Source: Bacteroidales bacterium
Lineage (GTDB): Bacteria; Bacteroidota; Bacteroidia; Bacteroidales; UBA932
Assembly (NCBI GenBank): GCA_017549145.1
Contig: JAFYVM010000016.1
Location: 1 to 35,712 of the forward strand
Direction of reading: 5' to 3'
Length of the DNA: 35,712 bases
How positions within the stretch are numbered: position 1 is the first letter of the stretch; every line of letters starts with the position of its first letter. A model generated the notes under the pieces. That model saw only the letters and a program-made list of their open reading frames with translations, did no database searches and was not told where the DNA came from. The position numbers and the translations under genes are program-made. Below are positions 2,380 to 23,999 of this stretch, piece after piece.

Positions 2380-2406
2380 TGTCATTCTGAACAAAGTGAA
2401 GAATCC
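2380..2406 (+). repeat. Dispersed stem-loop repeat, copy 1 (atpD-atpC junction)
   Basis: TGTCATTCTGAACAAAGTGA followed by AGAATCC. It is related to copies at 13613, 22271 and 23169. Stem ATTCT (2384-2388) pairs with AGAAT (2400-2404) across an 11-nt loop. The GTG inside this copy (2396) is the only credible start codon of atpC. Confidence 0.85.
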
Positions 2407-2650
2407 CGATACCATATTCCTGACAATCCACTCCCCGGAGCGCACGATCCTAGAAAAGATGGTGTGTAAGGTGTCATTGCCTGGAACCAAGGGACGCTTT
2501 ATGGTCCTGAAAGATCATGCTCCTTTGATTTCTTCGCTTGAACAGGGACGTATTACTTTTGTCAGTGATGGAGTAGAGGAGAATGTGGATATTCAGTCTG
2601 GATTTGTGGAGATTGCGTTTAATAAGATAATTGTGTGCGTGGAGCTATGA
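2396..2650 (+). CDS. atpC: ATP synthase F1 subunit epsilon
   Basis: An 84-aa epsilon subunit with only the N-terminal beta-sandwich domain. The motifs LTIHSPERTILE, VSLPGTKGRFMVLKDHAPLISSLEQG and the closing QSGFVEIAFNKIIVCVE are clear. The C-terminal helical hairpin of E. coli epsilon (about 139 aa) is absent, as is common in Bacteroidetes. Epsilon binds gamma at the foot of the central stalk and regulates ATPase activity. The start is GTG 2396, which lies inside a dispersed repeat; the frame is closed by TAA at 2369-2371 and offers no ATG. The ancestral start was probably displaced, so the first four residues (MKNP) are repeat-derived. The stop overlaps atpB by four bases. Confidence 0.92.
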   Translation: MKNPDTIFLTIHSPERTILEKMVCKVSLPGTKGRFMVLKDHAPLISSLEQGRITFVSDGVEENVDIQSGFVEIAFNKIIVCVEL

Positions 2651-3705
2651 GGTGGTTGAAGGTCATATTTGTTGTTATGCTTTTGACAGCATCTTCTGTC
2701 ACCCTAAGTGCAACCGAAGGGACTGATGACCAGGAAGTAGATGTCGCCCACATGCTCTTCGGACACATCGGGGATTCGTATGGCTGGCATATAACAGATT
2801 GGAGCGGCAAGCATGTGACCATTCCATTGCCTTGTATCGTTTATAGCAGACAGAGCGGATGGCACGTGTTTATGTCCACAAAAATAGAGCATGGACACCA
2901 GTATCAGGGATTTTTCCTTGCCGAGGAAGGCAGGTATGAGGATAAGATAGTCGAGAAAGATGCGTCTGGCGAATTGGTAAGGCCATTTGATATCTCGATA
3001 ACAAAGAACGTTGCATCTCTGATGATTACAGCCTTGTTGCTGATTGCGCTGGTGCTTGGATCGGCAAGGTGGTATAAGAAACATGATGCTGTCCAGGAAG
3101 GCTCGCCGAAAGGTATTGCGGGCTTGATGGAGATGATGATAATGATGGTCAATGATGATCTTATCAAGGCGTCAATCGGAGAGAAGGATTATAGAAAATA
3201 TGCTCCTTACCTCCTGACTGTGTTCTTCTTTATCTTTTTGAGTAACCTGTTGGGAATTGTACCATTTTTCCCGGGAGGTGCGAATGTGACAGGAAATATT
3301 GCAGTGACGATGGTACTTGCGCTATGTACCTTCTTCGCTGTGAATGTATTTGGAAATAAGCATTATTGGAAGGAGGTTCTCTGGCCGGATGTGCCGTTGT
3401 TCCTGAAGTTCCCTCTTCCGATCATGCAGACGATAGAGCTGTTCGGATTGATATCAAAACCATTCTCGCTGATGGTGAGGTTGTTTGCCAACATTATGGC
3501 CGGACATGCGATGATATTGGGACTTGTTGCGGTGATATTCGTGACAGCTAAGTTGGGACCGGTGATAAATGGTTCCATGACCTTCATTACCTTGCTTTTT
3601 GGGGTGTTTATGGATTGCTTGGAGCTGTTGGTGGCATTCATACAGGCGTATGTCTTTACGATGCTTTCATCAGTATTTATCGGCCTCTCACGACAAGAAC
3701 ATTAA
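2647..3705 (+). CDS. atpB: ATP synthase Fo subunit a
   Basis: A 352-aa Fo subunit a, which forms the proton half-channels beside the c ring. It begins with a signal-like hydrophobic stretch (MRWLKVIFVVMLLTASSVTLS) and a ~110-residue periplasmic extension, both common in Bacteroidetes AtpB. Membrane segments start around residue 122. The conserved LMVRLFANIMAGH carries the essential arginine at residue 278, equivalent to E. coli aR210. ATG 2647 overlaps the atpC stop as ATGA, implying translational coupling; a GTG at 2635 is possible but less likely. The small atpI-like gene often found between atpC and atpB in Bacteroides is missing. Confidence 0.95.
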   Translation: MRWLKVIFVVMLLTASSVTLSATEGTDDQEVDVAHMLFGHIGDSYGWHITDWSGKHVTIPLPCIVYSRQSGWHVFMSTKIEHGHQYQGFFLAEEGRYEDKIVEKDASGELVRPFDISITKNVASLMITALLLIALVLGSARWYKKHDAVQEGSPKGIAGLMEMMIMMVNDDLIKASIGEKDYRKYAPYLLTVFFFIFLSNLLGIVPFFPGGANVTGNIAVTMVLALCTFFAVNVFGNKHYWKEVLWPDVPLFLKFPLPIMQTIELFGLISKPFSLMVRLFANIMAGHAMILGLVAVIFVTAKLGPVINGSMTFITLLFGVFMDCLELLVAFIQAYVFTMLSSVFIGLSRQEH

Positions 3706-3732
3706 AATGTATAACCACTAAATAAGAACATT

Positions 3733-3990
3733 ATGTTACTATCAACAATTCTACTTCAGGTTGCAGGTGCAGCTATCTGGGGAAAGGTCGCAGGTGCAAT
3801 TGGAGCGGCTGTAGCAGCTATTGCAGCAGCATGGGGTATCGGTAAGATCGGTCAGTCTGCTATGGAGTCAATTGCTCGTCAGCCAGAGGCAGCCGGAAAC
3901 ATCCGTACTGCAATGCTTATCATCGGTGCTCTTGTGGAGGGTGCCTGCCTTTTCGCAATCATTGCTTGCCTTATGGCAATCGTGATGTAA
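3733..3990 (+). CDS. atpE: ATP synthase Fo subunit c
   Basis: An 85-aa two-helix proteolipid that forms the rotor ring. Helix 1 is glycine/alanine rich (KVAGAIGAAVAAIAAAWGIG), the polar loop is ARQPEAAGN, and helix 2 carries the ion-binding glutamate E69 in GALVEGACLF. The residues that make a sodium site in Ilyobacter-type rings (Gln in helix 1, Ser directly after the Glu) are Ile and Gly here, so proton coupling is inferred. It lies 27 nt after atpB. Confidence 0.96.
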   Translation: MLLSTILLQVAGAAIWGKVAGAIGAAVAAIAAAWGIGKIGQSAMESIARQPEAAGNIRTAMLIIGALVEGACLFAIIACLMAIVM

Positions 3991-4002
3991 TAGCTTGCGG
4001 CT

Positions 4003-4497
4003 ATGAACTTAATGCTACCAGACAGTGGTCTTCTATTTTGGATGACCATAATCTTTGCAATCGTATTCTTCGTCCTTGCCAAATTCGGTTTTCCGATAAT
4101 TACTGGCATGGTGGAGAAACGAAACAAGCGTATCGCAGATTCGCTTGAGGCTGCGCGTATTGCAGAAGATGCAATCGCACATCTTACCGAGGAGCAGGAA
4201 AGGATAATTTCCGAGACTCGTGCCAGTCAGGCTAAGCTTCTGCAGGAAGCTGCCGCTGAGCGTGATAAGATGATTGCTCAGGCTCAGGATAAGGCGAGAG
4301 AAGAAGCGCAGAAGATTATGGATGATGCCCGTGTGCGTATCCAGGAGGAGAAGGAGGCTGCTGTGAGGGAAGTCAGACAGGAGGTGGCGAAACTCTCTAT
4401 TGCTATCGCTGAGAAGGTTATCCGCAAGGAACTGTCTACTGATGACGCTCAGAAAGCTCTGGTTGATAAACTCTTGAACGAGGTGACAGAACTCTAA
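4003..4497 (+). CDS. atpF: ATP synthase Fo subunit b
   Basis: A 164-aa peripheral stalk protein. One N-terminal membrane helix (LLFWMTIIFAIVFFVLAKFG, about residues 10-29) is followed by a long charged amphipathic helix rich in A, E, K and R (AARIAEDAIAHLTEEQERI and onward), the right-handed coiled coil of the b dimer. The length is normal. It starts 12 nt after atpE and ends one base before atpH. It holds the alpha/beta hexamer still through contact with AtpH. Confidence 0.95.
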   Translation: MNLMLPDSGLLFWMTIIFAIVFFVLAKFGFPIITGMVEKRNKRIADSLEAARIAEDAIAHLTEEQERIISETRASQAKLLQEAAAERDKMIAQAQDKAREEAQKIMDDARVRIQEEKEAAVREVRQEVAKLSIAIAEKVIRKELSTDDAQKALVDKLLNEVTEL

Positions 4498-4498
4498 G

Positions 4499-5053
4499 AT
4501 GAATAGCGGTCCTATTGCATATAGATACGCTAAGGCCCTTCTGAAATTTGTTCAGGAGACTGGTGCCGGGGAGGCAGTTTACTCCCAGGCTTGCGTTCTT
4601 GTACTCAGGATGCAGGAGATTACTGCACTTGCAGAAGCTGTGCAGAAGAATTCTGAACTTGCCTTGGACCGCAAGGTGCAGTTGCTGAATTCTGCTTTAG
4701 GAGAACCTATGCAGGAAGAATTGTGCAAGTTTGTTACTCTCGTTCATGACCAGAAGCGAATTGGATTTTTCTTGCGAATGCTGCATTCATTTATAGAGCA
4801 GTATCGCCAGGCAAATTCAATCAAGGTTGGAAGATTGGTTACAGCATCTGAAGTGTCTGGACTAAAGGAGCGTCTTCAGTCAATTCTGAGTGAAAGTTCT
4901 GGAGCAACAGTAATCCTTGAGGAAGAACACAATCCGGATATCCTAGGAGGCTTTGTCTTTGAACTTGATGGAAGCCGCCTTGATGCAAGCGTAGAGGGAC
5001 AACTTGCTAAAATCCGTCGCCAGTTAGTGCAAAACAATAATAGAATAGTATAA
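4499..5053 (+). CDS. atpH: ATP synthase F1 subunit delta
   Basis: A 184-aa delta (OSCP) subunit that links subunit b to the top of the F1 head. The N-terminal helical domain starts IAYRYAKALLKFVQETG. The C-terminal part has the family pattern FIEQYRQANSIKVGRLVTASEVSG followed by DPxxLGG-like NPDILGGFVFELDGSRLDASVEGQLAKIRRQL. ATG 4499 is one base after the atpF stop, and the TAA abuts the atpA ATG, so translation of the three genes is probably coupled. Confidence 0.95.
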   Translation: MNSGPIAYRYAKALLKFVQETGAGEAVYSQACVLVLRMQEITALAEAVQKNSELALDRKVQLLNSALGEPMQEELCKFVTLVHDQKRIGFFLRMLHSFIEQYRQANSIKVGRLVTASEVSGLKERLQSILSESSGATVILEEEHNPDILGGFVFELDGSRLDASVEGQLAKIRRQLVQNNNRIV

Positions 5054-6634
5054 ATGAATACAATAAAACCGTCAGAAATATCAGATGTGCTTCTTAGCCA
5101 GCTGAAAGATATTGATGCCGAACTCCAATACGAGGAGATCGGTAAGGTCTTGCAGGTGAGTGATGGAGTAGTCCGTATATATGGCCTGTTGAATGCAGAG
5201 GCGGGAGAACTTCTTGAGTTTGACAATGGTATCAAGGCTGTTGTGATGAATCTTGAGGAGGATAATGTGGGAGCTGTGCTTTTGGGTCCGACTGACAAGA
5301 TCAAAGAGGGTATGACAGTTAAGCGTACTCGTAGAATTGCTTCGCTGAATGTCGGTGAAGGAATGCTGGGACGTGTCGTAAATCCTCTTGGAGAGCCTCT
5401 TGATGGCAAGGGCAGAATCGAGGGTGAACTCTTTGAAATGCCTTTGGAGAGAAAGGCTCCTGGTGTTATTTTCCGTCAGCCTGTGACTGAACCATTGCAG
5501 ACAGGTCTAAAGGCTATCGACTCGATGATCCCTATCGGTCGAGGTCAGCGTGAGCTCATCATCGGTGACCGTCAGACTGGTAAAACTGCAATTGCTGTCG
5601 ATACGATCCTCAATCAACGTGCGGCGTATGAGGCTGGAGAGCCTGTTTATTGTATTTATGTGGCAGTAGGCCAGAAAGGTTCTACAATCGCAAGTCTCGT
5701 CCAGACTCTAAAGGAAAAAGGAGCGCTGGACTACACTATAGTTGTGGCAGCAACCGCTGCAGATCAGGCAGCTCTTCGTTACTATGCTCCGTTTGCAGGA
5801 GCTGCAATTGGAGAGTATTTCCGTGACACAGGACGTCATGCTTTAGTTGTATATGATGACCTGTCAAAGCAGGCTGTGGCTTATCGTGAGGTGTCGTTGA
5901 TTCTTCGTCGTCCGTCCGGTCGTGAGGCATACCCAGGTGATATTTTCTATCTCCACTCAAGACTCCTTGAGAGAGCTGCTAAAATCATTGGTCAGCAGGA
6001 GGTTGCCCAGAAGATGAATGATCTCCCTGTTTCATTGCAGGGAAAGGTTAAGGCTGGTGGTTCCTTGACTGCGCTTCCTATTATCGAGACTCAGGCAGGA
6101 GACGTTTCAGCATATATTCCGACTAATGTGATTTCTATTACTGATGGTCAGATTTTCCTTGAAAGTGACCTATTTAACCAGGGATTCCGTCCAGCTGTGA
6201 ATGTGGGTATTTCGGTTTCGCGTGTTGGAGGAAGCGCCCAGCTTAAGAGTATGAAGAAGGTAGCTGGTACGCTTAAGATTGATCAGGCTCAGTATCGTGA
6301 GTTGGAGGCCTTCTCAAAGTTCAGCAGTGATATGGATCCTATTACTATGATGACGCTGGATAAGGGACGAAAGAATACGCGACTTCTGATTCAGCCTCAG
6401 TATTCACCGATGCCGGTAGGGGAGCAGGTGGCTATACTTTATTGTGGTACAAAGGGCTTGCTGAAAGATTTGACTTTGGATCAGGTGGATGATTTCCAGA
6501 CTACGTTCTTCCAGAAGATGAGGGCGTTCCACTCGGAAGATGTCCTTGATCCGCTTTCTCAAGGCCGTACTGACCAGCAGATTTTTGATATAATAGAACG
6601 CGAAGCACTTTCAATAGTTAACGGTCTTATTTGA
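5054..6634 (+). CDS. atpA: ATP synthase F1 subunit alpha
   Basis: A 526-aa non-catalytic nucleotide-binding subunit that alternates with beta in the F1 hexamer. The Walker A sequence GDRQTGKT is at residues 171-178. Other family signatures are [49 protein letters not shown] (in part) and the alpha/beta signature region [14 protein letters not shown]. The length is as expected. It follows atpH with no gap. Downstream lies a 108-nt palindromic element before atpG, the only large gap in the operon. Confidence 0.97.
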
Positions 6635-6640
6635 TAATAG

Positions 6641-6748
6641 TATGGGCGGTGAGGGTTATAAAACTAAATCCCTCCCACGATAAGTCGTGGGCCCCTCCCG
6701 TTCACGAGGCCACGGGCGGCCACGGTTTTATAACCCTCACAGCCCATA
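6641..6748. repeat. 108-nt palindromic element between atpA and atpG
   Basis: The outer arms (6641-6664 and 6725-6748) are 24 nt each and complementary at 23 positions; the only mismatch is at the eighth base from the outside. Two smaller hairpins lie inside: CCCACGA-TAAG-TCGTGGG (6674-6691) and CCCGT (6697-6701) with ACGGG (6712-6716). As RNA this is a long stem ending in a multi-branch loop. GGCCACGG also occurs twice inside. The discrete boundaries suggest a small non-autonomous mobile palindrome. Its position could lower expression of atpG relative to atpA. Confidence 0.85.
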
Positions 6749-6765
6749 GCATATAATATAAAGGT

Positions 6766-7707
6766 ATGTCGTCATTAAATGAAATAAAGAGCAGGATAGC
6801 CTCCGTCAAAAATACGCTGAAAATAACTTCAGCGATGAAGATGGTGGCCTCTGCAAAGCTGCATAAGGCTCAAGTCGCTATTGGCGGCAAACTGCCTTAT
6901 GAGCAGCAGTTGCATCGTATCCTCTCTGGTCTTCTTCAGGATGATGAACTTCATAAGGCAATGCACGACAAACTGGGATTCGGCAATCCTGATGGTCACT
7001 CTGCAGTGGTTCTTCAGGACGTAGGCCTGGATCAGATACCGACAAAGGATGTTTATCCACGCATTGCAATTCTTGCAATATCCTCTAATAGCTCTCTCTG
7101 TGGTTCTTTTAATGCCAATGTCATAAAGAAGTATCAGGAGACAATTCAAATCCTTGAAGATCAAGGTTATGCAAAGGAAGACATAGATGTCTATGTGATT
7201 GGAAGGAAGGTTGGTGAGGCTGTCAGGAAGTCTGGATATACTATTAAGGAGGATCGTTCACAGGTTGCGGATAAGCCATCTTATGATGCTGCTTATGACC
7301 TTGCTACTAATCTGGTTGACAGTTTTACTTCTGGAGAGGTGTCTCAGGTAGTGCTGGTATATAGTCATTTTGCATCAGCTGCATCTCAGCCTGTCGTACG
7401 CGAGAACTATCTCCCTCTTCCGATACATGATTATGAGGATGATGTAGACGAACCGGTAGATTATTTGCTGGAGCCTGATCCTCTCACTCTTGTAAGACAT
7501 TTGCTTCCACAGGTGCTTCTATTGAAGCTTTATACTGTCCTTCTTGATGCAAATGCAGCAGAGCACGCAGCACGTACCCTTGCAATGCAGGTGGCTTCAG
7601 ACAATGCGAAGGATCTCATCGGCGAGCTTACATTAGCATATAATAAAGGCCGCCAACAAGAAATCACAGCAGAAATTCTGGACCTTATTGGCGGTACTAT
7701 GCAGTAA
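6766..7707 (+). CDS. atpG: ATP synthase F1 subunit gamma
   Basis: A 313-aa central shaft subunit. The N-terminal helix (EIKSRIASVKNTLKITSAMKMVASAKLHKA) and the C-terminal helix (EHAARTLAMQVASDNAKDLI...AYNKGRQQEITAEILDLIGG) form the coiled coil inside the alpha/beta hexamer. The middle has SSNSSLCGSFNANVIK, the local form of SDRGLCGGFN. It is somewhat longer than the ~290 aa usual for the family because of an insertion near residues 50-85. It is the last gene of the operon. It ends 6 nt from the convergent DUF1015 gene, leaving no room for a separate terminator. Confidence 0.95.
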   Translation: MSSLNEIKSRIASVKNTLKITSAMKMVASAKLHKAQVAIGGKLPYEQQLHRILSGLLQDDELHKAMHDKLGFGNPDGHSAVVLQDVGLDQIPTKDVYPRIAILAISSNSSLCGSFNANVIKKYQETIQILEDQGYAKEDIDVYVIGRKVGEAVRKSGYTIKEDRSQVADKPSYDAAYDLATNLVDSFTSGEVSQVVLVYSHFASAASQPVVRENYLPLPIHDYEDDVDEPVDYLLEPDPLTLVRHLLPQVLLLKLYTVLLDANAAEHAARTLAMQVASDNAKDLIGELTLAYNKGRQQEITAEILDLIGGTMQ

Positions 7708-7713
7708 AATGTG

Positions 7714-8952
7714 CTAAGCTAATTTGTGGATTGCGAGGCCGCTGCGGAGCTTCGGCTCGAACCATGTGGTCTTTGGAGGCATGATGTTGCCTGAATCTGC
7801 TATATCCACCAACTGCTTCATTGAAACAGGGTAGAGTGCAAAGGCTACCTTCATCTCACCGCTGTCAACTCTGCGTGAGAGTTCTCCAAGTCCGCGGATA
7901 CCTCCAACGAAGTCGATTCTCTTCGATGTTCGTAGATCCTTGATGTCAAGAATCTTGTCAAGAACAAGGTTCGAGAGGATTGTCACGTCAAGAACTCCAA
8001 TCGGATCGTTGTCGTCGTATCGTCCTTCCTTAGCTACAAGCGAGTACCATTTACCTCCAAGATACATTGAGAACTCATGGAGCTTAGAAGGCTTGTAGAT
8101 TTCTGTACCTTCTTCTTTCACCTCAAAATCCTCAGCGAGGGCTTCCAGAAGCTGCTCCTCAGTAAGACCATTGAGATCCTGAACTACGCGGTTGTAGTCA
8201 ATGATCTTGAGCTGGCTATCAGGGAAGGCAACTGTCATAAAGAAGTTGTATTCCTCGTCACCTGTATGGTTTGGATTCTGTCCGCGAAGCTCTGCTCCCA
8301 CACGTGCTGCAGCAGCTGTACGATGATGACCATCAGCTACATAGAAAGCAGGAATATCTGCAAAAATCTCTGTGATACGGTCGATATCTGCCTGCTCGTC
8401 AATTACCCAGAAATGATGTCCGAATCCGTCTTCTGCAACGAAATCATATTCAGGCTCACCAGCGATGTAACGTGCTACGATGCCGTTGATTTCCTCATTA
8501 TCAGGATATGCAAAGAACACAGGCTCAATGTTGGCATTCTGGATTCGTACGTGAATCATACGGTCATCTTCCTTGTCCTTGCGGGTCAGCTCATGCTTCT
8601 TGATTGCGCCTGATGCGTAATCATCAGTGTGAGCGCACATCACAAGGCCATATTGTGTACGGCCGTCCATTGTCTGAGCATATACATAGTAGTATGGCTT
8701 ATCATCCTGAACAAGCCATCCCTTCTCCTGCCATGTCTTGAAGTTCTCAACAGCCTTGTCATAAGCAGGCTGACTATGCTCGTCAATGATAGGATCGAAA
8801 TCGATTTCTGGTTTTGTGATATGAAGAAGTGACTTCTCTCCAGCCTCAGCCTTTGCTTCAACAGAGTTCAAGACGTCGTAAGGACGTGCTGCAACTTCTT
8901 CGATATATTGTTTCGGCGGACGTACCGCTGCAAATGGTCTGATTCTTACCAT
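7714..8952 (-). CDS. DUF1015 family protein
   Basis: A 412-aa soluble protein of the DUF1015 family. It begins MVRIRPFAAVRPPKQYIEEVAARPYDVLN, the usual family start, and contains the conserved VADGHHRTAAAARVG motif in the middle. The biochemical role is not established. In Bacteroidetes it commonly travels with serC and serA, as here (7 nt after serA), which suggests a link to serine or phosphoserine metabolism. That link is inference from context. It is the last gene of the minus-strand operon and converges on atpG. Confidence 0.9.
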   Translation of the reverse strand: MVRIRPFAAVRPPKQYIEEVAARPYDVLNSVEAKAEAGEKSLLHITKPEIDFDPIIDEHSQPAYDKAVENFKTWQEKGWLVQDDKPYYYVYAQTMDGRTQYGLVMCAHTDDYASGAIKKHELTRKDKEDDRMIHVRIQNANIEPVFFAYPDNEEINGIVARYIAGEPEYDFVAEDGFGHHFWVIDEQADIDRITEIFADIPAFYVADGHHRTAAAARVGAELRGQNPNHTGDEEYNFFMTVAFPDSQLKIIDYNRVVQDLNGLTEEQLLEALAEDFEVKEEGTEIYKPSKLHEFSMYLGGKWYSLVAKEGRYDDNDPIGVLDVTILSNLVLDKILDIKDLRTSKRIDFVGGIRGLGELSRRVDSGEMKVAFALYPVSMKQLVDIADSGNIMPPKTTWFEPKLRSGLAIHKLA

Positions 8953-8959
8953 AATTCTA

Positions 8960-9871
8960 TTATTTGTTTACCTGGAATTTGACACAGCCAATCTCGAAGT
9001 ATTTGACGATCTGATGAGCAGCTGCAAGACCTGCATTGATGTTTGCTTCAGATGTCTCAGCACCCATTTTCTTAGGTGTCGCAAATACTCTGTTGCCGAA
9101 TTTCTCTTTGAGTTCATTGATGCACTCAGGAGCGATATCTGTAGCGTATTTAAGGTCTGGTCTCTCTGTAAGAGCCTGCATCAGTCCTTCCTCGCAGATC
9201 AGCTCTTTGCGTGCTGTGTTGATCAAGCATCCGCCTTTAGGCATCTGAACAAGGTATTCATACTTAACAGAACCCTTTGTCATTGGGGTAGCCGGGATAT
9301 TGATAGAAATGAAGTCACATGAACTGTAGAGTTTATCAAATGAGAAAGTCATATTCCATCTCTGATGCTTTTCCTTGATTTCATCAGTCTTGATGATGAC
9401 GTCCATTCCCAGGGCGACTGCCTTCTTGGCTATGAGCTGTCCGATATTACCGAATCCGATGATGCCAAGTTTCTTGCCGCTCAACTCGCTGCCTGTGCCT
9501 GGGTTGAAGCAGTTTCTTGACATATAGATCATCATACCTATCGCAAGTTCTGCTACGGCATTGGAGTTCTGTCCAGGAGTGTTCATTACCACAATCTTGC
9601 GCTCTGTGCAAGCTTTGAGGTCCACATTGTCATAGCCGGCGCCAGCGCGAACAACCAGTTTCAGTTGTTTCGCTGCCTCTACAACTTCTGCTGTGACCTT
9701 GTCTGAGCGAATGATCATAGCGTCAACATCTGCTACAGCAGCGAGGAGTTCCTCTTTTGTCTTGTATTTTTCTAGTAGAACAAGTTCGTGACCTGCCTCT
9801 TCGAGTATATCACGAATGCCGCTCACAGCTTCTGCTGCGAACGGCTTTTCGGTAGCTAGTAGAACTTTCAT
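8960..9871 (-). CDS. serA: D-3-phosphoglycerate dehydrogenase, short form
   Basis: A 303-aa enzyme that oxidises 3-phosphoglycerate to 3-phosphohydroxypyruvate with NAD, the first step of serine synthesis. The NAD loop is GIIGFGNIGQL, the active-site Arg lies in NTARKELI, and the Glu in DIAPECI. Where most D-2-hydroxyacid dehydrogenases have the catalytic His (TPHxG), this protein reads ATPKKMGAET, so Lys takes its place. This matches the His-less, Lys-containing short PGDHs described from Entamoeba and many Bacteroidetes. There is no ACT or ASB regulatory domain, so serine feedback through those domains is not expected. It starts 2 nt after serC. Confidence 0.92.
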   Translation of the reverse strand: MKVLLATEKPFAAEAVSGIRDILEEAGHELVLLEKYKTKEELLAAVADVDAMIIRSDKVTAEVVEAAKQLKLVVRAGAGYDNVDLKACTERKIVVMNTPGQNSNAVAELAIGMMIYMSRNCFNPGTGSELSGKKLGIIGFGNIGQLIAKKAVALGMDVIIKTDEIKEKHQRWNMTFSFDKLYSSCDFISINIPATPMTKGSVKYEYLVQMPKGGCLINTARKELICEEGLMQALTERPDLKYATDIAPECINELKEKFGNRVFATPKKMGAETSEANINAGLAAAHQIVKYFEIGCVKFQVNK

Positions 9872-9873
9872 GA

Positions 9874-10947: not shown

Positions 10948-10961
10948 GATGAATGAAGTTA

Positions 10962-11414: not shown

Positions 11415-11416
11415 AA

Positions 11417-12325: not shown

Positions 12326-12339
12326 ATTGTTGTTATTGG

Positions 12340-12954: not shown

Positions 12955-12962
12955 ACAAAAGC

Positions 12963-12970
12963 CAAATTTA
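12963..12970 (-). promoter_or_regulatory. Promoter -7 box for the yigZ-pyrBI-serCA operon
   Basis: On the minus strand this reads TAAATTTG, an exact TAnnTTTG match ending 8 nt before the yigZ ATG. The mRNA would have almost no leader. No clear TTG is seen upstream. Confidence 0.5.
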
Positions 12971-13078: not shown

Positions 13079-13612
13079 ATGATACTTAAATATAGAGTTT
13101 CACTCCCTGGACTGAAGGGATTTGCAAGAGTGTATGAGGTGAAGGATACCACCACGCTTTATAGCTTTCACAAGCAGATGAGAGCAGACATGGATTTCCC
13201 TCAGGATCAGATCGTACTTTTCAAATCATTCGACCCAGTCGGAAATGTAGCTGCAAGATATAGTATTACGGATCTTGGATTCGGTACTATCGATGATGTC
13301 ACTTGTGGTGCTTGTCATAAGCGCGAGGAGGATAAATTCATCTATTTCTACGACACAACTAACGTAAAGAGCGTTATTGTGACTTTCGAGGGAGAGGGTG
13401 AACCTCGTTTTAAGGCGATTTATCCATTGCTTGTCGAGACTAAGGGTCCGAACCCTATCGAGTTTGAGAATGGATATGTAGCATTTGAGGACCTTCCAGA
13501 TGATAAGAAGAAGGATCCGGAGGATGATGACGACGATGACTTCATTGACGATGAGGATGATGATGAGGGCATCGAGGATGACGAAACAGAGGAACTCTAC
13601 GACGAGGAGTAA
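13079..13612 (+). CDS. Plasmid pRiA4b ORF3-like protein
   Basis: A 177-aa protein whose first ~140 residues fit the pRiA4b ORF-3-like family (MILKYRVSLPGLKGFARVYEVKDTTTLYSFHKQM...). It has WxF-like beta strands and the segment IDDVTCGACHKREEDKFIYFYD. The C-terminus (about residues 143-177) is almost entirely Asp and Glu and is probably unstructured. The function is unknown; despite the plasmid-derived name, it is a chromosomal gene often found beside miaA in Bacteroidetes. It is separated from miaA only by a dispersed repeat. Confidence 0.8.
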   Translation: MILKYRVSLPGLKGFARVYEVKDTTTLYSFHKQMRADMDFPQDQIVLFKSFDPVGNVAARYSITDLGFGTIDDVTCGACHKREEDKFIYFYDTTNVKSVIVTFEGEGEPRFKAIYPLLVETKGPNPIEFENGYVAFEDLPDDKKKDPEDDDDDDFIDDEDDDEGIEDDETEELYDEE

Positions 13613-13639
13613 TGTCATCCTGAACGAAGTGAAGGATCT
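13613..13639 (+). repeat. Dispersed stem-loop repeat, copy 2 (upstream of miaA)
   Basis: TGTCATCCTGAACGAAGTGA followed by AGGATCT. It starts directly after the TAA of the preceding gene and ends 5 nt before the miaA ATG, so it fills the whole gap. Stem ATCCT (13617-13621) pairs with AGGAT (13633-13637). Compared with copy 1, one stem position has changed on both sides (T-A to C-G). Confidence 0.85.
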
Positions 13640-13644
13640 CTCCA

Positions 13645-14562
13645 ATGAACCGTAAACTGATTATCATACTAGGCCCCACAGCTGTAGGCAAGACTGACTA
13701 CAGCATTGAGATGGCGCTTAAATATGATTCTCCGATTATTTCTTGCGACTCGCGTCAGATATATAAGGAAATGAGTATTGGCACAGCTGTGCCTTCTGCT
13801 GAGCATCTTGCAGCTGTTCAGCATTATTTTATTCATTCCCATACAGTTACAGAGCTCTATACGGCTGGAAAGTATGAGGTTGAGGCTCTGGATTTAATCA
13901 ATAAGCTTTTTGATCAGGGACATGAGACTCTGGTTATGGCAGGCGGTTCCGGATTCTATGTTGATGCCCTCGTAAACGGATTGGATGATTTCCCTTCTGC
14001 AGATTTGAAGTTGCGTGATGAGCTTATGCGCAGGCTCAAGGAAGAAGGGGTTGAAGAGCTGAGATTGGAGCTCAAGGCATTGGATCCTGAAAGTTATGAG
14101 ACAATCGACATTGCCAATGGACAGCGTGTCGTGCGTGCTCTGGAGGTGTGTCTGATGACAGGAAAGCCATTCTCTTCATTTAAGACAGCAGAGAAGAAGG
14201 CACGCGATTTTGAGATTGAGAAGATTGGTCTTACGCGTCCACGTGAAGTGCTCTATGATAGAATCAACCGTCGTGTCTTGCAGATGATTGATGAGGGGCT
14301 GGTCGATGAGGTGCGCTCGGTTGAACAGTATCGTGAACTTGCTGCTCTTCAGACAGTTGGCTATAAGGAAATCTTCGATTGGTTTGACTATCAGAACGGT
14401 CTGGTCTCGACTGAGGGATGGGGACCGACATCACCAGGAGACGGACCTGTCACTTCATTGGACAGAGCAATCGAACTGATTCAACGTAATACACGCCATT
14501 ATGCCAAGCGTCAGTTGTCTTACTGGAAGCGTGACAAAGATATAAAATGGCTTGAGTTATAA
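13645..14562 (+). CDS. miaA: tRNA dimethylallyltransferase
   Basis: A 305-aa enzyme that transfers dimethylallyl to A37 of tRNAs reading codons that begin with U. The P-loop GPTAVGKT is at residues 10-17. It is followed by the substrate motif ISCDSRQIYKEMSIGTAVP and, later, ANGQRVVRALEVCLMTGKPFS and LQTVGYKEIFDW. The length is normal. It is the second gene of a two-gene transcript running from 13028 to the hairpin at 14572-14598. Confidence 0.96.
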   Translation: MNRKLIIILGPTAVGKTDYSIEMALKYDSPIISCDSRQIYKEMSIGTAVPSAEHLAAVQHYFIHSHTVTELYTAGKYEVEALDLINKLFDQGHETLVMAGGSGFYVDALVNGLDDFPSADLKLRDELMRRLKEEGVEELRLELKALDPESYETIDIANGQRVVRALEVCLMTGKPFSSFKTAEKKARDFEIEKIGLTRPREVLYDRINRRVLQMIDEGLVDEVRSVEQYRELAALQTVGYKEIFDWFDYQNGLVSTEGWGPTSPGDGPVTSLDRAIELIQRNTRHYAKRQLSYWKRDKDIKWLEL

Positions 14563-14566
14563 AGAC

Positions 14567-17064: not shown

Positions 17065-17116
17065 GGCGTAGTGCAACTTATTATAATAATGAACGCGAAA
17101 ATAGCGAAAAAAATCT

Positions 17117-17124
17117 TATTTTTG
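17117..17124 (+). promoter_or_regulatory. Promoter -7 box for the DUF308-dnaG gene run
   Basis: TATTTTTG matches TAnnTTTG exactly, 42 nt upstream of the DUF308 start, in the divergent gap with fhs. No TTG is found at -33. The hairpin 17138-17156 lies in the leader. Confidence 0.5.
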
Positions 17125-17137
17125 CATTCTATGTGTA

Positions 17138-17156
17138 CTTCACTTTACAAGTGAGG
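17138..17156 (+). promoter_or_regulatory. Leader hairpin of the DUF308 gene
   Basis: CTTCACTT pairs with AAGTGAGG over 8 bp (one G-U pair) with the 3-nt loop TAC. An A-run (CTAAAAAAAT) then leads to the ATG. It has the same outer sequence (CTTC...GAGG), stem length and TAC loop as the hairpin at 13029-13047. Confidence 0.55.
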
Positions 17157-17166
17157 CTAAAAAAAT

Positions 17167-17802
17167 ATGACAATGATAACTTTTGGTTACAAAAACAAAT
17201 TCAGCGGTCTTATCCGCTCAGTTTTGGCAATTGCTGTCGGTGTGGTGATGGTTGCAAGCAGAGCTAATGCTCTAGAACTTGCTGTACAGATAATTGCAGC
17301 GTTTCTGGTCGCTACTGGAGTCGTGACATTTTTACTTGGATTCAAGACAAAGGAGGGTGGTGAGAATAAGTTGATGCTTGTAAATGCTGCCGTAGATGTT
17401 TTGTTGGGAGTACTGCTGTTCTTCTTCCCTGGTTTTGTTGTAAACATCATGATCTATATCATCGGTTTTGCGCTTATCGCATTCGGGCTATTCCAGATTG
17501 CTGCTTTGGTAAGTGCCATCCGAGTGTCGCAGGTTGGATACGGGTCCTTTGTCTTGCCGGTACTTGTTGTTATCGCTGGATGTTTTCTTGTGGCAAGACC
17601 ATCTTTCATTGGTGAAGCGATAGGTATTGTTGCTGGTGCAGCGTTGATCGTATATGGTGCATCTGAGCTTTTCTCTACTTGGAAAATGCGCAAGGCAATT
17701 GATGAGTATGAGATAAAGGAGGCTCCTAAGACTGAAGTGAAAGAGTCTGAAGTGGAGATTGAGGCTGAGGATGTAGAATATCAGAAGGTTGACGAACAGT
17801 AA
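17167..17802 (+). CDS. DUF308 (HdeD-like) membrane protein
   Basis: A 211-aa inner-membrane protein with about six hydrophobic segments between residues 15 and 175, in pairs typical of DUF308/HdeD (for example LIRSVLAIAVGVVMVA, VDVLLGVLLFFFPGFVVNIM, GFALIAFGLFQIAAL and LPVLVVIAGCFLVARPS). The last ~40 residues are soluble and acidic (EVKESEVEIEAEDVEYQ). HdeD is linked to acid resistance in E. coli, but the function here is unknown. It lies 2 nt before dnaG and is probably co-transcribed with it. Confidence 0.82.
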   Translation: MTMITFGYKNKFSGLIRSVLAIAVGVVMVASRANALELAVQIIAAFLVATGVVTFLLGFKTKEGGENKLMLVNAAVDVLLGVLLFFFPGFVVNIMIYIIGFALIAFGLFQIAALVSAIRVSQVGYGSFVLPVLVVIAGCFLVARPSFIGEAIGIVAGAALIVYGASELFSTWKMRKAIDEYEIKEAPKTEVKESEVEIEAEDVEYQKVDEQ

Positions 17803-17804
17803 AA

Positions 17805-19853
17805 ATGATTCCTCAGGAGACAGTAAATAGAATCCTTGACGCCGCGCAGATTGTTGACGTGGTCAGGGATTTTGTTACCTTGAAGAAGGCAGGAGCTGAT
17901 TATAAGGCTTGCTGCCCTTTTCACAATGAAAAGACTCCGTCGTTTTCTGTGTCTCCATCTAAGGGAATTTACAAATGCTTCGGTTGCGGAAAGTCCGGCA
18001 CAGCTGTCGGCTTCGTGATGGAGCATGAAAATATGACTTACGTCGAGGCTCTCAGATATCTGGCAAAGAAGTATAATATTGAGATTGTGGAGAAGGAGGA
18101 GTCGGCAGAGGAGATTGCCAGCCGTCAGCGTCACGAAAGTCTTCTTCTGGTATCTGAGTTTGCGGGGAAGTTTTATCAGGACAGTCTTCAGACCCCGGAT
18201 GGTCAGGTGATTGCCTACCAGTATTTCAGAAGTCGTGGCCTTACCGATGAAACTATCCAGAAGTATGGTCTCGGATGGGCTCCGGTTTCACGTACTGATT
18301 TTTCACAGGCTGCCAGAGCTGCAGGATATAAGGAGGAGTTCCTTATTGATGCAGGCCTCTGTATGAAATATGAAGACGGACGTCTTGTCGACCGTTTCCA
18401 TGACAGGGTGATGTTCCCGATCCACTCACACATCGGACGTGTCATAGCTTTCGGTGGACGAACCCTCGCTAAGCCTGTTCCGGGCAAGCCGTATGCAAAA
18501 TATAAGAACTCTCCGGAGACAGAAATATATGTAAAGAGCAGTTCTTTATACGGAATTTACTTCGCTAAGAGCGAAATCTCGAAAAAAGATAATTGTATCC
18601 TCGTTGAGGGCTACCTCGATGTGCTTCAGATGCACCAGTTAGGTCTGAAGAATGTCGTGGCTTCAAGTGGAACATCGCTTACTGTGGATCAGATACGAAT
18701 GATCCGCAAGTTTACTAACAATGTTACAATCATCTACGACGGTGACGGCGCAGGTATCAAGGCAGCCCTTAGAGGTATTGGCCTGATTCTGAAGGAGGGG
18801 TTGAATGTGAAGATTGTACTCCTGCCTGATGGCCAGGACCCAGATGATTTTGCACGTAAACATACTTTAGATCAGGTTCAGGACTATATTGATCAGAACA
18901 AGCAGGATTTCATCGGCTTTAAGTCAGACTTGTTGTTGGGTGAGGCGGGAGATGATCCATTGAAGAGAGCTGGCCTGATTAACGATATCGCCGATACAAT
19001 TGCTTTGATTCCAGATGCTGTGATCAGGGCGATGTATGTACGTTCAACAGCTTCTAAGTTCGAGATTGATGAACGCTTGTTGGTGGAGAGAATATCCTCT
19101 ACGAGAACTGAAATGCTGGAGGATGAGCAGAGGCAGCGACAGCGCGAGATAGAACGCAAGAAGGTAGTGATGAGCTCTGATGATCAGGTGCCTCCTCCTG
19201 AGTATGTCGATTATGGCATGGAATATCCGGATGAAATGCCTCCGATGGATGAAGTGCCGATGCTGGAACCAGAGCCGGTCGTAGAAGGCTCTATTGTCAT
19301 AAATGCTCCGGACTTTGCTCCATGCGAACATGAACTTCTGAAGTTTATTCTTGAATATGGATGCTCGGATTTGATGTTTGACAGAGACTCGAAGTATTAT
19401 GTTGCTGGTGAGACCATAAATGTTGCTGAGTTTATTGATGGCACTCTGGCAGATGATGAGCATGATTTTGAAAATCAGTCATACAGAAAGGTCTATGAGG
19501 AGTATTTCAGATTGTATGATGAAGGACTCACTCAACAGCAGATTCAGACACGTTTGCTCAATAGCATGGATCTGGAGATCGCGGAAGTTGCAAAGGAATT
19601 GTTGATCGAAAAACATCAGCTTACTGTTGCAAACTATGAAAAATCAATGACTTCTGCTGCGACTCTACTTGTACAGTTCGTCCCTAAGTCTTTGATGATT
19701 TACCAGGTGAAGAAACTGGATAAGATGATAAGCGAACTGATGGCCGGGCTTACATCAAATGATGATTTAGAGGCTCAGGTGGAGACTCTTACCAAAATAA
19801 GTGATCTGACCCGTACCCGTACAATGCTTAACAAGGAGCTTGGTCGAGTGTAA
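17805..19853 (+). CDS. dnaG: DNA primase
   Basis: A 682-aa primase that makes RNA primers at the replication fork. The N-terminal CHC2 zinc finger has ligands C37, H40, C58 and C61 (CPFH...CFGC). The TOPRIM catalytic core has ILVEGYLDVL near residue 268 and IIYDGDGAGIKAALRG near residue 310. The linker around residues 430-500 is rich in Glu, Pro and Met. The C-terminal domain, which binds DnaB helicase, is divergent as usual. The protein is slightly longer than the E. coli enzyme (581 aa). Confidence 0.96.
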   Translation: MIPQETVNRILDAAQIVDVVRDFVTLKKAGADYKACCPFHNEKTPSFSVSPSKGIYKCFGCGKSGTAVGFVMEHENMTYVEALRYLAKKYNIEIVEKEESAEEIASRQRHESLLLVSEFAGKFYQDSLQTPDGQVIAYQYFRSRGLTDETIQKYGLGWAPVSRTDFSQAARAAGYKEEFLIDAGLCMKYEDGRLVDRFHDRVMFPIHSHIGRVIAFGGRTLAKPVPGKPYAKYKNSPETEIYVKSSSLYGIYFAKSEISKKDNCILVEGYLDVLQMHQLGLKNVVASSGTSLTVDQIRMIRKFTNNVTIIYDGDGAGIKAALRGIGLILKEGLNVKIVLLPDGQDPDDFARKHTLDQVQDYIDQNKQDFIGFKSDLLLGEAGDDPLKRAGLINDIADTIALIPDAVIRAMYVRSTASKFEIDERLLVERISSTRTEMLEDEQRQRQREIERKKVVMSSDDQVPPPEYVDYGMEYPDEMPPMDEVPMLEPEPVVEGSIVINAPDFAPCEHELLKFILEYGCSDLMFDRDSKYYVAGETINVAEFIDGTLADDEHDFENQSYRKVYEEYFRLYDEGLTQQQIQTRLLNSMDLEIAEVAKELLIEKHQLTVANYEKSMTSAATLLVQFVPKSLMIYQVKKLDKMISELMAGLTSNDDLEAQVETLTKISDLTRTRTMLNKELGRV

Positions 19854-19861
19854 ATTGAAAC

Positions 19862-19877
19862 GAATAATTTATAAAAA
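19862..19877 (+). repeat. A/T-rich leader repeat, copy 1
   Basis: GAATAATTTATAAAAA occurs here, 11 nt before the EEP lipoprotein ATG, and is repeated exactly at 20672-20687, 6 nt before the metG ATG. A/T-rich unpaired leaders aid initiation in Bacteroidetes, which make little use of Shine-Dalgarno pairing. Confidence 0.7.
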
Positions 19878-19885
19878 ACTATATC

Positions 19886-20677
19886 ATGAAACTTACAAGA
19901 ATTATTGCGGCTGCGTGCCTGCTTATGGGAGTCTTCGCATGCAAATCTCAGGAAACAAAGACTATTACATTGGTACAGTACAATGTTGGTGTATTTGCTA
20001 AGTATGACAGCAGTAGTGTTGACGCTGTAAAGCGTGCAGTGCTCGAAATGGGTGCAGATGCTGTAACATTCAATGAGGTGGACAGCTGCACTACCAGAAC
20101 AGGATCGGTAGACCAGATGGCTGCTTTTGCAGAGGCAATGGGTGGCTGGAATCAGCATTATGCTGCGGCTATGCCTTATAAGGGTGGCGCTTATGGTGTT
20201 GGTGTTGCCGCTAAGCCAGAGCTTGAGGTTGTACGTGTGGACAAGATTGCTCTTCCTAAGCTTGATGGTAGAGAGCCAAGAGCAGTTGCTGTTGTAGAGT
20301 ACAATGATTTCGTTCTTTGCTCGACTCATCTTGACCTTACTTTGGAGTCTCAGCTTGGCCAGGTGGCTGCTATCAATCAGTATGTTGACAGCCTCTACGC
20401 TGACTCTACAAAGCCAGTTTTCATTGGTGGAGACTTTAACTGCTTCCCTGATAGCGAGCCAATTGCCGAGTTCCAGAAGACTTGGACTCTTTTGACTCCA
20501 GTAACAAACTCATTCCCTTCACATGCTCCAGACAGATGCATTGACTATATCTTCGTAAGAGAGAACGGCCGCAAGGTGAATGTAGTTGCTACATCAATCC
20601 CTGAGACATTGGAGACAGCTGATCTTGCAACAGCATCAGATCACCTTCCAGTTGCTCTTACTGTGACAATTGAATAA
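19886..20677 (+). CDS. Endonuclease/exonuclease/phosphatase-family lipoprotein
   Basis: A 263-aa exported lipoprotein. The signal peptide MKLTRIIAAACLLMGVFAC ends in the lipobox GVFAC, with the lipidated Cys at residue 19. The EEP metal-dependent hydrolase motifs are complete: QYNVG, NEVD (catalytic Glu), STHLDL, GGDFNCFPDS, CIDYIFV and the closing SDHLPV. The substrate could be a phosphodiester, nucleic acid or sphingolipid-like molecule; the sequence does not decide. The mature protein should face the periplasm or cell surface. It lies 32 nt after dnaG and 16 nt before metG. Confidence 0.88.
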   Translation: MKLTRIIAAACLLMGVFACKSQETKTITLVQYNVGVFAKYDSSSVDAVKRAVLEMGADAVTFNEVDSCTTRTGSVDQMAAFAEAMGGWNQHYAAAMPYKGGAYGVGVAAKPELEVVRVDKIALPKLDGREPRAVAVVEYNDFVLCSTHLDLTLESQLGQVAAINQYVDSLYADSTKPVFIGGDFNCFPDSEPIAEFQKTWTLLTPVTNSFPSHAPDRCIDYIFVRENGRKVNVVATSIPETLETADLATASDHLPVALTVTIE

Positions 20678-20687
20678 TTTATAAAAA
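20672..20687 (+). repeat. A/T-rich leader repeat, copy 2
   Basis: An exact 16-nt copy of GAATAATTTATAAAAA from 19862. It overlaps the stop of the EEP gene and ends 6 nt before the metG start codon. Confidence 0.7.
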
Positions 20688-20693
20688 GATAAT

Positions 20694-22886
20694 ATGAGTA
20701 AGAATTTCAATAGAACACTTGTAACCTGTGCGCTTCCATACGCAAACGGTCCTGTCCACATCGGTCACCTTGCCGGTGTGTATGTACCTGCAGATATCTA
20801 TGTGAGATATTTGCGTATGAGAGGTGAGGATGTGCTTTATGTGTGTGGCTCGGATGAGCATGGTGTGCCTATTACAATCAAGGCACAGAAGGAAGGATGC
20901 ACTCCACAGGATATCGTAGACAGATATCACAAGATCATCAAGGATTCTTTTACAGGCCTTGGTATCAACTTCGATATATATTCTAGAACTTCATCTAAGG
21001 TTCATCATAAGAATGCTGCGGACTACTTCCGTAAGTTGTATGATGAGGGCAAGTTCATCGAGAAGGTGAGTGAGCAGTACTATGATGAGGAGACAAAGAC
21101 ATTCCTCGCTGACCGCTATATTACAGGTACATGTCCACGTTGCGGCGCTGACGGAGCCTATGGTGACCAGTGTGAGAAATGTGGTGCAACTCTTAGCCCG
21201 GATGAACTTATCAACCCTAAGTCAGCTCTTAGCGGTGGTGAACTCGTAAAGAAGGAGACTAAGCATTGGTACCTTCCTCTTGATCAGTACGAGAAGTGGC
21301 TTTCAGAGTGGATTCTTGATGGACACAAGGAGTGGAGAAGCAACGTATATGGCCAGTGCAAGAGCTGGATTGATGGTGGCCTTCAGCCACGTGCGGTGAG
21401 CCGTGACCTTAACTGGGGTGTTCCAGTACCTGTTGAGGGTTCAGAGGGCAAGGTCCTCTATGTTTGGTTCGATGCTCCTATCGGATATATTTCTAACACA
21501 CAGGAACTCCTCCCTCAGAGTTGGGAGAAATGGTGGAAGAGCGAGGATACCAAGCTCGTTCACTTCATTGGAAAGGATAATATCGTATTTCACTGCATCG
21601 TATTCCCTTCAATGCTCAAGGCAGACGGAAGCTATATCCTTCCAGATAACGTTCCTGCAAATGAGTTCCTTAACCTCGAGGGTGATAAGATCTCGACTTC
21701 ACGTGGATGGGCAGTATGGCTCCACGAGTACCTCGAGCAGTTCCCTGGACAGGAGGACGTCCTTCGTTATGTTCTTACTGCTAATGCTCCTGAGACAAAG
21801 GATAATGACTTCTCTTGGAAGGACTTCCAGGCACGCAATAATAGTGAGCTTGTTGCCATCCTCGGTAACTTCGTGAACCGTGCTGTTGTCCTTACGCACA
21901 AATATTTCGAGGGTAAGGTTCCTGCAGACCTCAAGCCAGAGGCTGTGGATGCAGAGACACTTGCTCAGATCAAACCGCTTCGTGAGGCCATGGAGAAGTA
22001 TCTTGAGGGATACAAGTTCCGTGAGGCTCTTAAGGAGGCTATGAACATCGCTCGTCTTGGTAACAAGTACCTTACTGACACAGAGCCTTGGAAGGTGGCA
22101 AAGACAGATATGGACAGAACAGCTTCTATCTTGAATGTTTCTCTCCAGATCTGTGCGTCTCTTGCAATCGCATTCGAGCCATTCCTTCCTTTCTCAGCTG
22201 AGAAGCTCCGCAATATCCTTAATGTCGGTATCGTAGCAGGTGCTGACCACCGTGCAGGTGAGGAGTTTACTGTCATCCCGAGCGAAGTCGAGGGATCTCT
22301 CTACGTAAACCGTTATACTGCAGCTGAGGGCGCAGCTCTTCATACAGGTGTTGCTTACGATGGTCTTTCACTTTCATGGGATGACCTCGGAAATGCAGTT
22401 CTTCTCCCAGCAGGTCACCAGCTCAACCCTGCAACTCTCCTCTTCGGAAAGATCGAGGATGAGGTCGTAGATGCACAGATTGCACGTCTTGAGGCAATTC
22501 GCGCTGAGCGTGAGGCTGCAGCAAAGGCGGCTGAGGCAGCAGTTGTGACTCCACAGAAGGAGGAGTGCACATTCGATGATTTTGGTAAGATGGATATCCG
22601 TACTGCGACAGTTCTTGAAGCAGAGCGCGTTCCAAAGACTGATAAGCTTTTGAAGCTTACTATCGACACCGGAATCGATAAGAGAGTCATTGTTTCAGGT
22701 ATCGCTGAGCATTATTCTCCAGAGGATATGGTTGGTAAGCAGATCTGTATTTTGGCCAACCTTGCTCCTCGTAAGATTCGTGGCATCGAGTCTAAGGGTA
22801 TGATTCTCATGGCTCGTCAGAATGACGGCAAGATGAGATTCATCACTCCACAGGAGACTCTTTGCAATGGCGCAGAGATTGGATAG
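20694..22886 (+). CDS. metG: Methionyl-tRNA synthetase
   Basis: A 730-aa class I synthetase that charges tRNA-Met. The HIGH motif is HIGH at residues 22-25. The zinc knuckle has C147, C150, C160 and C163. The KMSKS loop reads KISTS at 332-336. An anticodon-binding helical domain follows, then a C-terminal Trbp111-type tRNA-binding domain from about residue 621 ([23 protein letters not shown]). Between these, residues 526-535 ([10 protein letters not shown]) are encoded by a dispersed repeat inside a ~45-residue loop (residues about 515-560) not expected in the family. The frame stays open, so the enzyme should be functional. Confidence 0.97.
22271..22298 (+). repeat. Dispersed stem-loop repeat, copy 3 (inside metG)
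   Basis: TGTCATCCCGAGCGAAGTCG followed by AGGGATCT. Stem ATCCC (22275-22279) pairs with GGGAT (22292-22296) across a 12-nt loop. Two stem pairs differ from copy 1, each changed on both sides. The loop is one base longer than in the other copies. It is read in-frame as VIPSEVEGS. Confidence 0.85.
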
Positions 22887-22913
22887 TCTATATTAACTGA
22901 TAAGGATGAAGTT

Positions 22914-23999
22914 ATGATCAAGACGGAATACTATAAGGATTTGACCAAGATGAACACCTTCGGAATGAAGGTGAAGGCCAGGTGTTTTATGGAATATGAC
23001 TCTGTAGCAGACTTGGTTGATATTGAGTTCGAGGAACTTGCACGCCCGGTGCTTCATATCGGTGGCGGAAGTAACTTGCTCTTTACTGATGACTTCAAAG
23101 GCACAGTCCTTCATTCAAATATTAACTTCATCGAAATTCTTGACACCCCATGTCATTCTGAGCCTTCTTGTCATTCTGAGCGAAGCGAAGAATCTTCATC
23201 CCCTGTCCTGGTTTCAGTCGGCTCAGGAGTAGTCTTCGACGATTTCTGCGACTGGGCTGCAAAAGAGGGCCTTTGGGGCGCTGAGAACCTTTCATATATC
23301 CCTGGTGAGGTCGGAGCATCAGCTGTTCAGAATATCGGAGCATACGGTGTTGAGGTAAAGGATATTATCCACAAGGTTTATTGCTATGACACCGTAGAAG
23401 AGGAGTTCGTAAGCTTCTCACTTGAGGAGTGTGGCTACGGCTATCGCGACTCTATTTTCAAGAAACCGGAGATTAAGGGCCGTTATATCGTCACTCATGT
23501 TGTGTTCGCACTTTCTCGTGAGGCTAACCCTCAGCTAGGATACGGCCATTTGCGTGATGCGGTAATGGAGGCTGCTAATCAAAACATTACTCCGGCGGCG
23601 ATCAGGAAGGTGATTATCAAGATCAGGAAGGAGAAGTTGCCAGAGCCATCAGTGATGGGTAGTGCAGGAAGCTTCTTTATGAACCCGGTAATCAGCCTTG
23701 AGCATTATCAGAAGATAGAGGCTGCAGCAAAGGCAGAGTTCGGACCTGATTATAAGGTGCCGCATTATGACCTTCCGGACGGAATGGTCAAGGTTCCGGC
23801 AGCCTGGATGATCGAGCAGTGTGGCTGGAAGGGTAAGAGAAGCGGAGGTGCTGCGGTTTATGACAAGCAGCCATTGGTTATTGTGAACTATACCGGTGAT
23901 GCTTATCCGGAAGAGATTATCGGTCTTGAGCGCAGGATAATCGCTTCAGTAAAAACAAAGTTCGGAGTTGAACTTCATCCTGAAGTAGATCACATCTAA
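22914..23999 (+). CDS. murB: UDP-N-acetylmuramate dehydrogenase
   Basis: A 361-aa FAD enzyme that reduces UDP-GlcNAc-enolpyruvate to UDP-MurNAc for peptidoglycan. The start MNTFGMKVKARCF and the FAD loop HIGGGSNLLF are clear. Further motifs are GWGAENLSYIPGEVGASAVQNIGAYG-like sequence (here GLWGAENLS...), the catalytic serine in GSAGSFFMNPV, and the final glutamate in ELHPEVDHI. Residues 80-97 (CHSEPSCHSERSEESSSP) come from one truncated and one full dispersed repeat. They fall in a surface-type loop after the first FAD subdomain strands. The longer open frame and intact downstream motifs argue that the protein works. Confidence 0.95.
   Translation: MIKTEYYKDLTKMNTFGMKVKARCFMEYDSVADLVDIEFEELARPVLHIGGGSNLLFTDDFKGTVLHSNINFIEILDTPCHSEPSCHSERSEESSSPVLVSVGSGVVFDDFCDWAAKEGLWGAENLSYIPGEVGASAVQNIGAYGVEVKDIIHKVYCYDTVEEEFVSFSLEECGYGYRDSIFKKPEIKGRYIVTHVVFALSREANPQLGYGHLRDAVMEAANQNITPAAIRKVIIKIRKEKLPEPSVMGSAGSFFMNPVISLEHYQKIEAAAKAEFGPDYKVPHYDLPDGMVKVPAAWMIEQCGWKGKRSGGAAVYDKQPLVIVNYTGDAYPEEIIGLERRIIASVKTKFGVELHPEVDHI
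23151..23195 (+). repeat. Dispersed stem-loop repeat, truncated copy plus copy 4 (inside murB)
   Basis: A 13-nt truncated copy (TGTCATTCTGAGC, 23151-23163) is followed by a full copy at 23169-23195 (TGTCATTCTGAGCGAAGCGA then AGAATCT). Stem ATTCT (23173-23177) pairs with AGAAT (23189-23193). It is read in-frame as CHSERSEES, a different frame from the metG copy. Neither frame contains a stop codon; the third frame does. Confidence 0.85.

Follow-up and report, generated by a model that had tools for sequence, protein, structure and literature searches.

The window analyzed here is a stretch of 35,712 nucleotides from a Bacteroidales bacterium (assembly GCA_017549145.1, contig JAFYVM010000016.1), a placement that its gene families also suggest. 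It carries four full copies of a short hairpin-forming repeat, all on the plus strand. The first (positions 2380-2406; stem ATTCT/AGAAT, loop AAA, inner pair A-T) is intergenic and lies 25 nt past an open reading frame (ORF) at 783-2354. The second (13613-13639; stem ATCCT/AGGAT, inner pair A-T) adjoins the stop codon of the ORF at 13079-13612, and the next ORF (13645-14562) begins 5 nt downstream of it. The other two copies are inside genes and keep the reading frame. One (22271-22298; 28 nt, with an extra base in the 3' arm; stem ATCCC/GGGAT) is found in the methionyl-tRNA synthetase gene metG (20694-22886, plus strand). It belongs to an odd CCC/GGG subtype and is not among the covariance-model matches described below. 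The other (23169-23195; stem ATTCT/AGAAT, loop GAA) is found in murB (22914-23999, plus strand), where it reads CHSERSEES and falls inside the FAD_binding_4 match. Immediately 5' of it is an 18 nt 5' half-unit, TGTCATTCTGAGCCTTCT (23151-23168, plus strand). All four copies and the truncated fifth one abutting the murB copy had been proposed from the sequence, and positions, strand and stems are as proposed. In addition, an orphan 5' half, GTCATCCTGAGC, lies on the minus strand at 35692-35703, beside the end of the contig, and an array at this point may be where the assembly broke.

Could such matches arise by chance or from low-complexity sequence? The element is short, but the pattern GTCATYCYGARCRAAG matches four times in the window, whereas 100 shuffled windows give 0.00 matches on average. 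The motif of the original prediction has 49 matches genome-wide while its reversed pattern has none, and a looser pattern (up to two mismatches) has 82 matches while its reversed control again has none. These controls rule out the chance reading, to which we attach practically no probability. The 82 looser matches divide evenly between the strands (41 plus and 41 minus), and the claim that all copies are on the plus strand is thus true only of the full copies in the window.

The unit is 27 nt long and can be written as TGTC, AT-N-C-Y, GA, R-C, a GNA loop, G-Y, GA, R-G-N-AT and CT. After the TGTC tag, the hairpin consists of five pairs, two conserved G·A mismatches, two further pairs (seven in all) and a GNA or GNNA loop, the loop being mostly 3-4 nt; CT follows. 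Of 91 copies, 89 have T as the base 5' of GTC, and 86 have a tail of C followed by T. GTC itself was fixed in the search patterns and departs in 2 of the 82 copies where mismatches were allowed. The stem starts with AT in 29 of 30 distinct copies. The mismatches are conserved as G9·A19 in 109 and A10·G18 in 110 of 119 distinct sequences, a set that includes some partial or array hybrids. At loci of the window's genome (G000) and of another genome of the genus (G129), fetched by searches that favoured xAAG loops, the 25 nt form has GNA loops in 73 copies and ANA in 9 (n = 82), and the variants one base longer (26 nt) have a GNNA loop in six of seven cases, with a pyrimidine as third base in six of six. 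GNA and GNNA loops closed by C-G give very stable DNA mini-hairpins. Because their third base is a pyrimidine, the GNNA loops here are outside the GNRA rule for RNA, and we lean towards a constraint at the DNA level. A table in PMC10527192 lists a 2 bp hairpin melting at 76.5 C, without showing its sequence.

Does the stem change in a coordinated way? We aligned 30 of our 34 distinct sequences from G000 and G129 (GTC required; four that look partial or hybrid and all 26 nt variants excluded). Pair 6-22 is C-G in 17 of the 30, U-A in seven, G-C in four and something else in two; pair 11-17 is G-C in 16, A-U in 11 and something else in three. Three measures exceed all 500 shuffles: 95.2% of stem cells are paired (shuffled mean 86.4), two-sided changes occupy 23 cells (shuffled mean 7.5), compared to three cells with one-sided changes, and the covariation score is 0.302 (0.137 in shuffles), which is also above every slid version. 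Two other measures are unremarkable, namely the number of pairs with two-sided change (three, reached by 48 of 500 shuffles) and the number of further pair types (six, reached by all 500). In corrected mutual information across the 119 sequences, the top three of 300 column pairs are 6-22, 11-17 and 8-20, in this order, and all three are stem pairs. Among the listed matches from viral contigs and named genomes, found with both bases of the third pair left free in the pattern, this pair is Watson-Crick (T-A, C-G, G-C or A-T) in 290 of 295 copies, wobble in four and mismatched in one. Fold stability as such was rejected as a signal, the predicted folding energies being ordinary compared to shuffles, with weak z-scores. 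The original prediction held that the stem changes are coordinated and that the fold matters. Neither of the outcomes that it named as a refutation, one-sided changes as frequent as two-sided ones or a lack of further copies, was seen. The covariation supports it: the fold of this repeat is real and under constraint.

A genome scan with a covariance model, which the original prediction had proposed, gives 97 matches at E-values up to 0.01 (150 of 2008 candidates scored) in an assembly of 2.35 Mb, 78 contigs and 83% completeness. The copies are near-identical, lie scattered through the genome and have flanks that look unrelated to one another. They are mostly single, with nine close inverted pairs among the 97 matches as read by eye. 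Twelve of the family's 149 genomes contain exact copies of the 25-mer pattern: 66 in G000, 86 in G129, 53 in G121 (a genome of another genus) and 1 to 13 in nine others. Nine of the 11 genomes of the genus contain no exact copy of this pattern. In G121, eight of 18 loci (L383-L390; the 18 loci hold 26 of the 53 copies) have inverted pairs 25-39 nt apart, whose inner arms are mostly TCAAGTT / AACTTGA-like, forming a REPIN-like unit. A similar pattern matches at least 119 stretches in named genomes; the 80 matches listed come from Bacteroidota, Acidobacteria, Chloroflexi, Nitrospirae, Planctomycetes, Firmicutes, Proteobacteria, Omnitrophota, Verrucomicrobia and Patescibacteria, and include isolates. 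It also matches at least 120 stretches of viral contigs, and variant copies occur on cyanobacterial plasmids. In no pair of strains did we find a single copy present in one and cleanly missing from the other, so transposition itself was not observed.

We are interested in what the copies do to the genes that they enter. Among 75 copies in G000 whose gene context was classified (each more than 300 nt from the ends of its locus), 24 lie within ORFs, 20 of them sense and four antisense; the metG copy is additional. The in-gene copies keep the reading frame and the host genes stay open. As 27 nt make nine codons, many predicted proteins carry a nine-residue insert with the frame kept. The insert reads CHPERSEGS-like in 18 of the 20 sense copies and VILSEAKDL-like in the other two, and EILRCAQDD in all four antisense copies. 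In G129, where contexts cover 16 of 86 copies, three sense in-gene copies are VILSEAKDL-like and two antisense ones are unlike each other. Pfam domains were found in 18 of the 20 host proteins submitted, out of 21 host genes (20 plus metG); L040, with an insert 7 amino acids from a doubtful start, was excluded. The matched hosts include methionyl-tRNA synthetase, MurB, a TsaD-fold protein (TsaB by eye) and a PP-loop protein (TilS by eye). Further hosts are a Mur-ligase-type protein (FolC by eye), chorismate synthase, EPSP synthase, MutS-type and MetH-type proteins and an aldehyde dehydrogenase. MetG has nine residues more than the 95%-identical MetG of genome G155, in a linker of variable length across the genus, and the MurB insert sits in a loop that is of different length in the two aligned relatives. 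The boundaries of both inserts are known to within a few codons, since the nearest relative, G155, has just 81% DNA identity here. The Rickettsia palindromic elements (RPEs) likewise are palindromes in frame within many unrelated protein genes, but they differ in sequence and host; the repeat described here adds nine residues, and within a species it is mostly read in one frame. A mobile palindrome can thus add nine-residue inserts to many conserved proteins, as predicted from their genes, outside Rickettsia as well.

Is the repeat read as RNA? In G000, 54 of 68 orientable copies are sense. A subtype with a CCT stem and an NAA loop, defined after seeing the data, is sense in a ratio of 33:1, whereas the three other subtypes combined show no bias (18:13). 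A second gene caller agrees in 69 of 75 cases and gives 34:1 for this subtype compared to 22:13 for all others (Fisher p-value 0.0006). Between co-directional genes, 34 sense copies lie at a median of 16.5 nt after the stop and 28 nt before the start, and three forms of the repeat have sense RNA with folding energies between -4.6 and -7 kcal/mol. A cis-acting RNA element, selected near starts and in operon gaps and acting on mRNA stability or translation, would account for such a pattern. However, the sense excess is not significant in other phyla (21:15, p-value 0.41) or in viral contigs (27:15, p-value 0.09), and the ratio is 7:5 in G129. For all of these ratios except that of G129, and for the 33:1 and 18:13 above, the loci used had a GC content of 56% or less and the copies lay 400 nt or more from an end. 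A general sense-strand rule is therefore rejected. The lack of bias in the other subtypes and the choice of the biased one after the fact also weigh against an RNA element, and a conserved role is made less likely by the in-gene copies and by the lack of exact copies in 9 of the 11 genomes of the genus. Rfam gives no match in three repeat-bearing loci at E-values up to 1. We consider a cis-acting RNA element distinctly unlikely. The bias of the CCT-NAA subtype may come from transcription-coupled insertion or from selection.

If the repeat is mobile, which enzyme might move it? The original prediction suggested looking for a RAYT/Y1 transposase in the genome, and RAYT-like genes are indeed present. 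Three proteins of 305-318 amino acids match Y1_Tnp, one of them over the Pfam cut-off; all three match NF047646 (REP_Tyr_transpos) weakly, below its cut-off of 80 bits. They keep the HUH and tyrosine motifs (by eye), and further paralogues occur. It is tempting to suppose that these proteins move the repeat, as GTAG REPs are thought to be moved by theirs. A Y1 match is found in 10 of the 12 repeat-bearing genomes, and in one more of the 12, G091, two of the RAYT-like proteins find a match. However, 85 of the 137 repeat-free genomes have a Y1 match as well (odds ratio 3.1, Fisher p-value 0.21, with only 12 repeat-bearing genomes), and no copy of the repeat occurs within 1.5 kb of any of the three genes. 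In a set of 27 RAYT loci (25 distinct places), a single one, in G129, has a 26 nt copy about 100 nt beyond the match, which the high copy density there could explain. G121, 77% complete and rich in exact copies, gives no match in the Y1/RAYT searches. On flanks and co-occurrence, the RAYT association is rejected, and movement by the genome's own RAYT-like proteins seems to us unlikely. The result agrees with the description of CGTC repeats in PMC3733652, in which they are reported as not associated with transposase genes. As a side observation, one RAYT-like gene is followed directly by a 15 bp perfect hairpin (approximately L032:2334-2370); this may be a terminator, or a palindrome that goes with the RAYT gene and has no relation to the repeat.

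We compared the repeat with known palindromic families. The CGTC superfamily (Di Nocera et al. 2013, PMC3733652) is described there with a CGTC tag, TGTC being a listed variant, a stem of 8-9 bp starting with AT, a loop of 4-5 nt and a short unpaired tail that is mostly CCA. It has Bacteroidetes members, HH dimers, intragenic copies and complementary stem changes; RPE-6 and RPE-4 equal CGTC-1 and CGTC-4, and what spreads these repeats was left open in 2013. The repeat in our genome shares with this description the TGTC tag, the AT stem start and the lack of flanking transposase genes (Y1/RAYT in our case). It differs in its two conserved G·A mismatches, its GNA or GNNA loop, its CT tail in place of CCA, its mainly single copies and its occurrence beyond the five phyla listed in PMC3733652. 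It differs, too, in its half-unit arrays (see below); the word "half" does not occur in the main text of that paper. We class it as a variant and not as an ordinary CGTC member: the tag and the AT start agree, the tail does not, and the stem and loop do not clearly do so. The GTAG REPs with RAYT (TnpAREP), according to PMC8266576, are also tagged short dispersed hairpins, and TnpAREP needs the 5' tetranucleotide and, in E. coli, stem mismatches; in our case the tag is TGTC and the RAYT-like genes are not generally flanked by the repeat. The inverted pairs of G121 resemble REPINs (PMC3116915), whereas the copies in the window's genome are mostly single. In the literature searched, 15-mers of the repeat and the peptide CHSERSEE were not found in any paper; the matches listed for 11-12-mers and one 15-mer look, by title, like unrelated primers. 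The element is a REP-type palindrome, nearest to the TGTC variant of the CGTC superfamily, with RPE-like in-frame insertion.

Truncated units accompany some of the copies, mainly on their upstream side. We examined 91 copies (75 from G000 with at most one mismatch and 16 from G129, no 26 nt variants). Truncated 5' halves lie within 60 nt upstream of 23 of them (36 halves, full copies excluded, one or two perhaps due to chance), while truncated 3' halves lie within 60 nt downstream of three. The spacing is mostly 17-21 nt. In the six cases inside genes the offsets are all multiples of three, which is not so outside genes. Of 148 copies among the matches listed from named genomes, 13 have 5' halves within 70 nt upstream and none has 3' halves downstream; among those from viral contigs, the counts are 10 of 147 upstream and six downstream, some of these being tandem full copies. 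No half-unit array was found at the 26 copies of G121. One locus of the window's genome (G000:C24:44661-44774) has four GTCATCCTGAGC halves with a 22 nt period, followed by a 26 nt full copy. By eye, the distal half-units look more decayed, which suggests that arrays grow next to the full copy. Placed copies would seed 5' half-unit arrays on their upstream side, and the arrays probably grow by slippage of a half-unit against the 5' half of the full copy, which it matches.

The explanation that we favour, and consider reasonably probable, is a 27 nt non-autonomous REP-type mobile palindrome that seeds half-unit arrays and that travels as a folded single strand of DNA, with the help of an enzyme acting in trans. 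The folded TGTC strand would be recognised and moved as single-stranded DNA, and the enzyme supplied in trans would most likely be an HUH-type nuclease. The 97 matches, the covariation, the G·A mismatches, the GNA and GNNA loops, the patchy distribution, the many phyla, the one-sided half-units with their differing number on two Planktothrix plasmids, and the needs of TnpAREP for a tag and stem mismatches all speak for this mobile palindrome. Against it stand the lack of any enzyme linked to the repeat, the RAYT-like genes without general flanking copies, the ordinary folding energies, the absence of a clean filled and empty strain pair, and G121, with arrays at none of 26 copies and no Y1/RAYT match. 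A bolder reading, which we regard as unlikely, is a pan-bacterial family of TGTC-tagged single-stranded DNA hairpins with GNA or GNNA loops, served by an enzyme that is neither RAYT nor a known transposase. Under it, one subtype, which in this genome would go into the coding strand of transcribed genes with hardly an exception, would insert in a way coupled to transcription. Returning to the mobile palindrome, a near-identical hairpin that occurs in many phyla and is patchy within one genus (66 and 86 copies in two genomes compared to none in nine) offers a practical system for finding the enzyme.

The number of units in the one-sided arrays can differ between strains. Two Planktothrix agardhii plasmids have, at one place with a matching outer flank, two half-units and one half-unit, respectively, before the full copy. 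On these plasmids (L381:15456-19231, L380:4875-8164), repeats and arrays lie inside a gene annotated as MmeI and also beside genes annotated as DISARM. The plasmid strains differ at these loci in the numbers of both copies and half-units.
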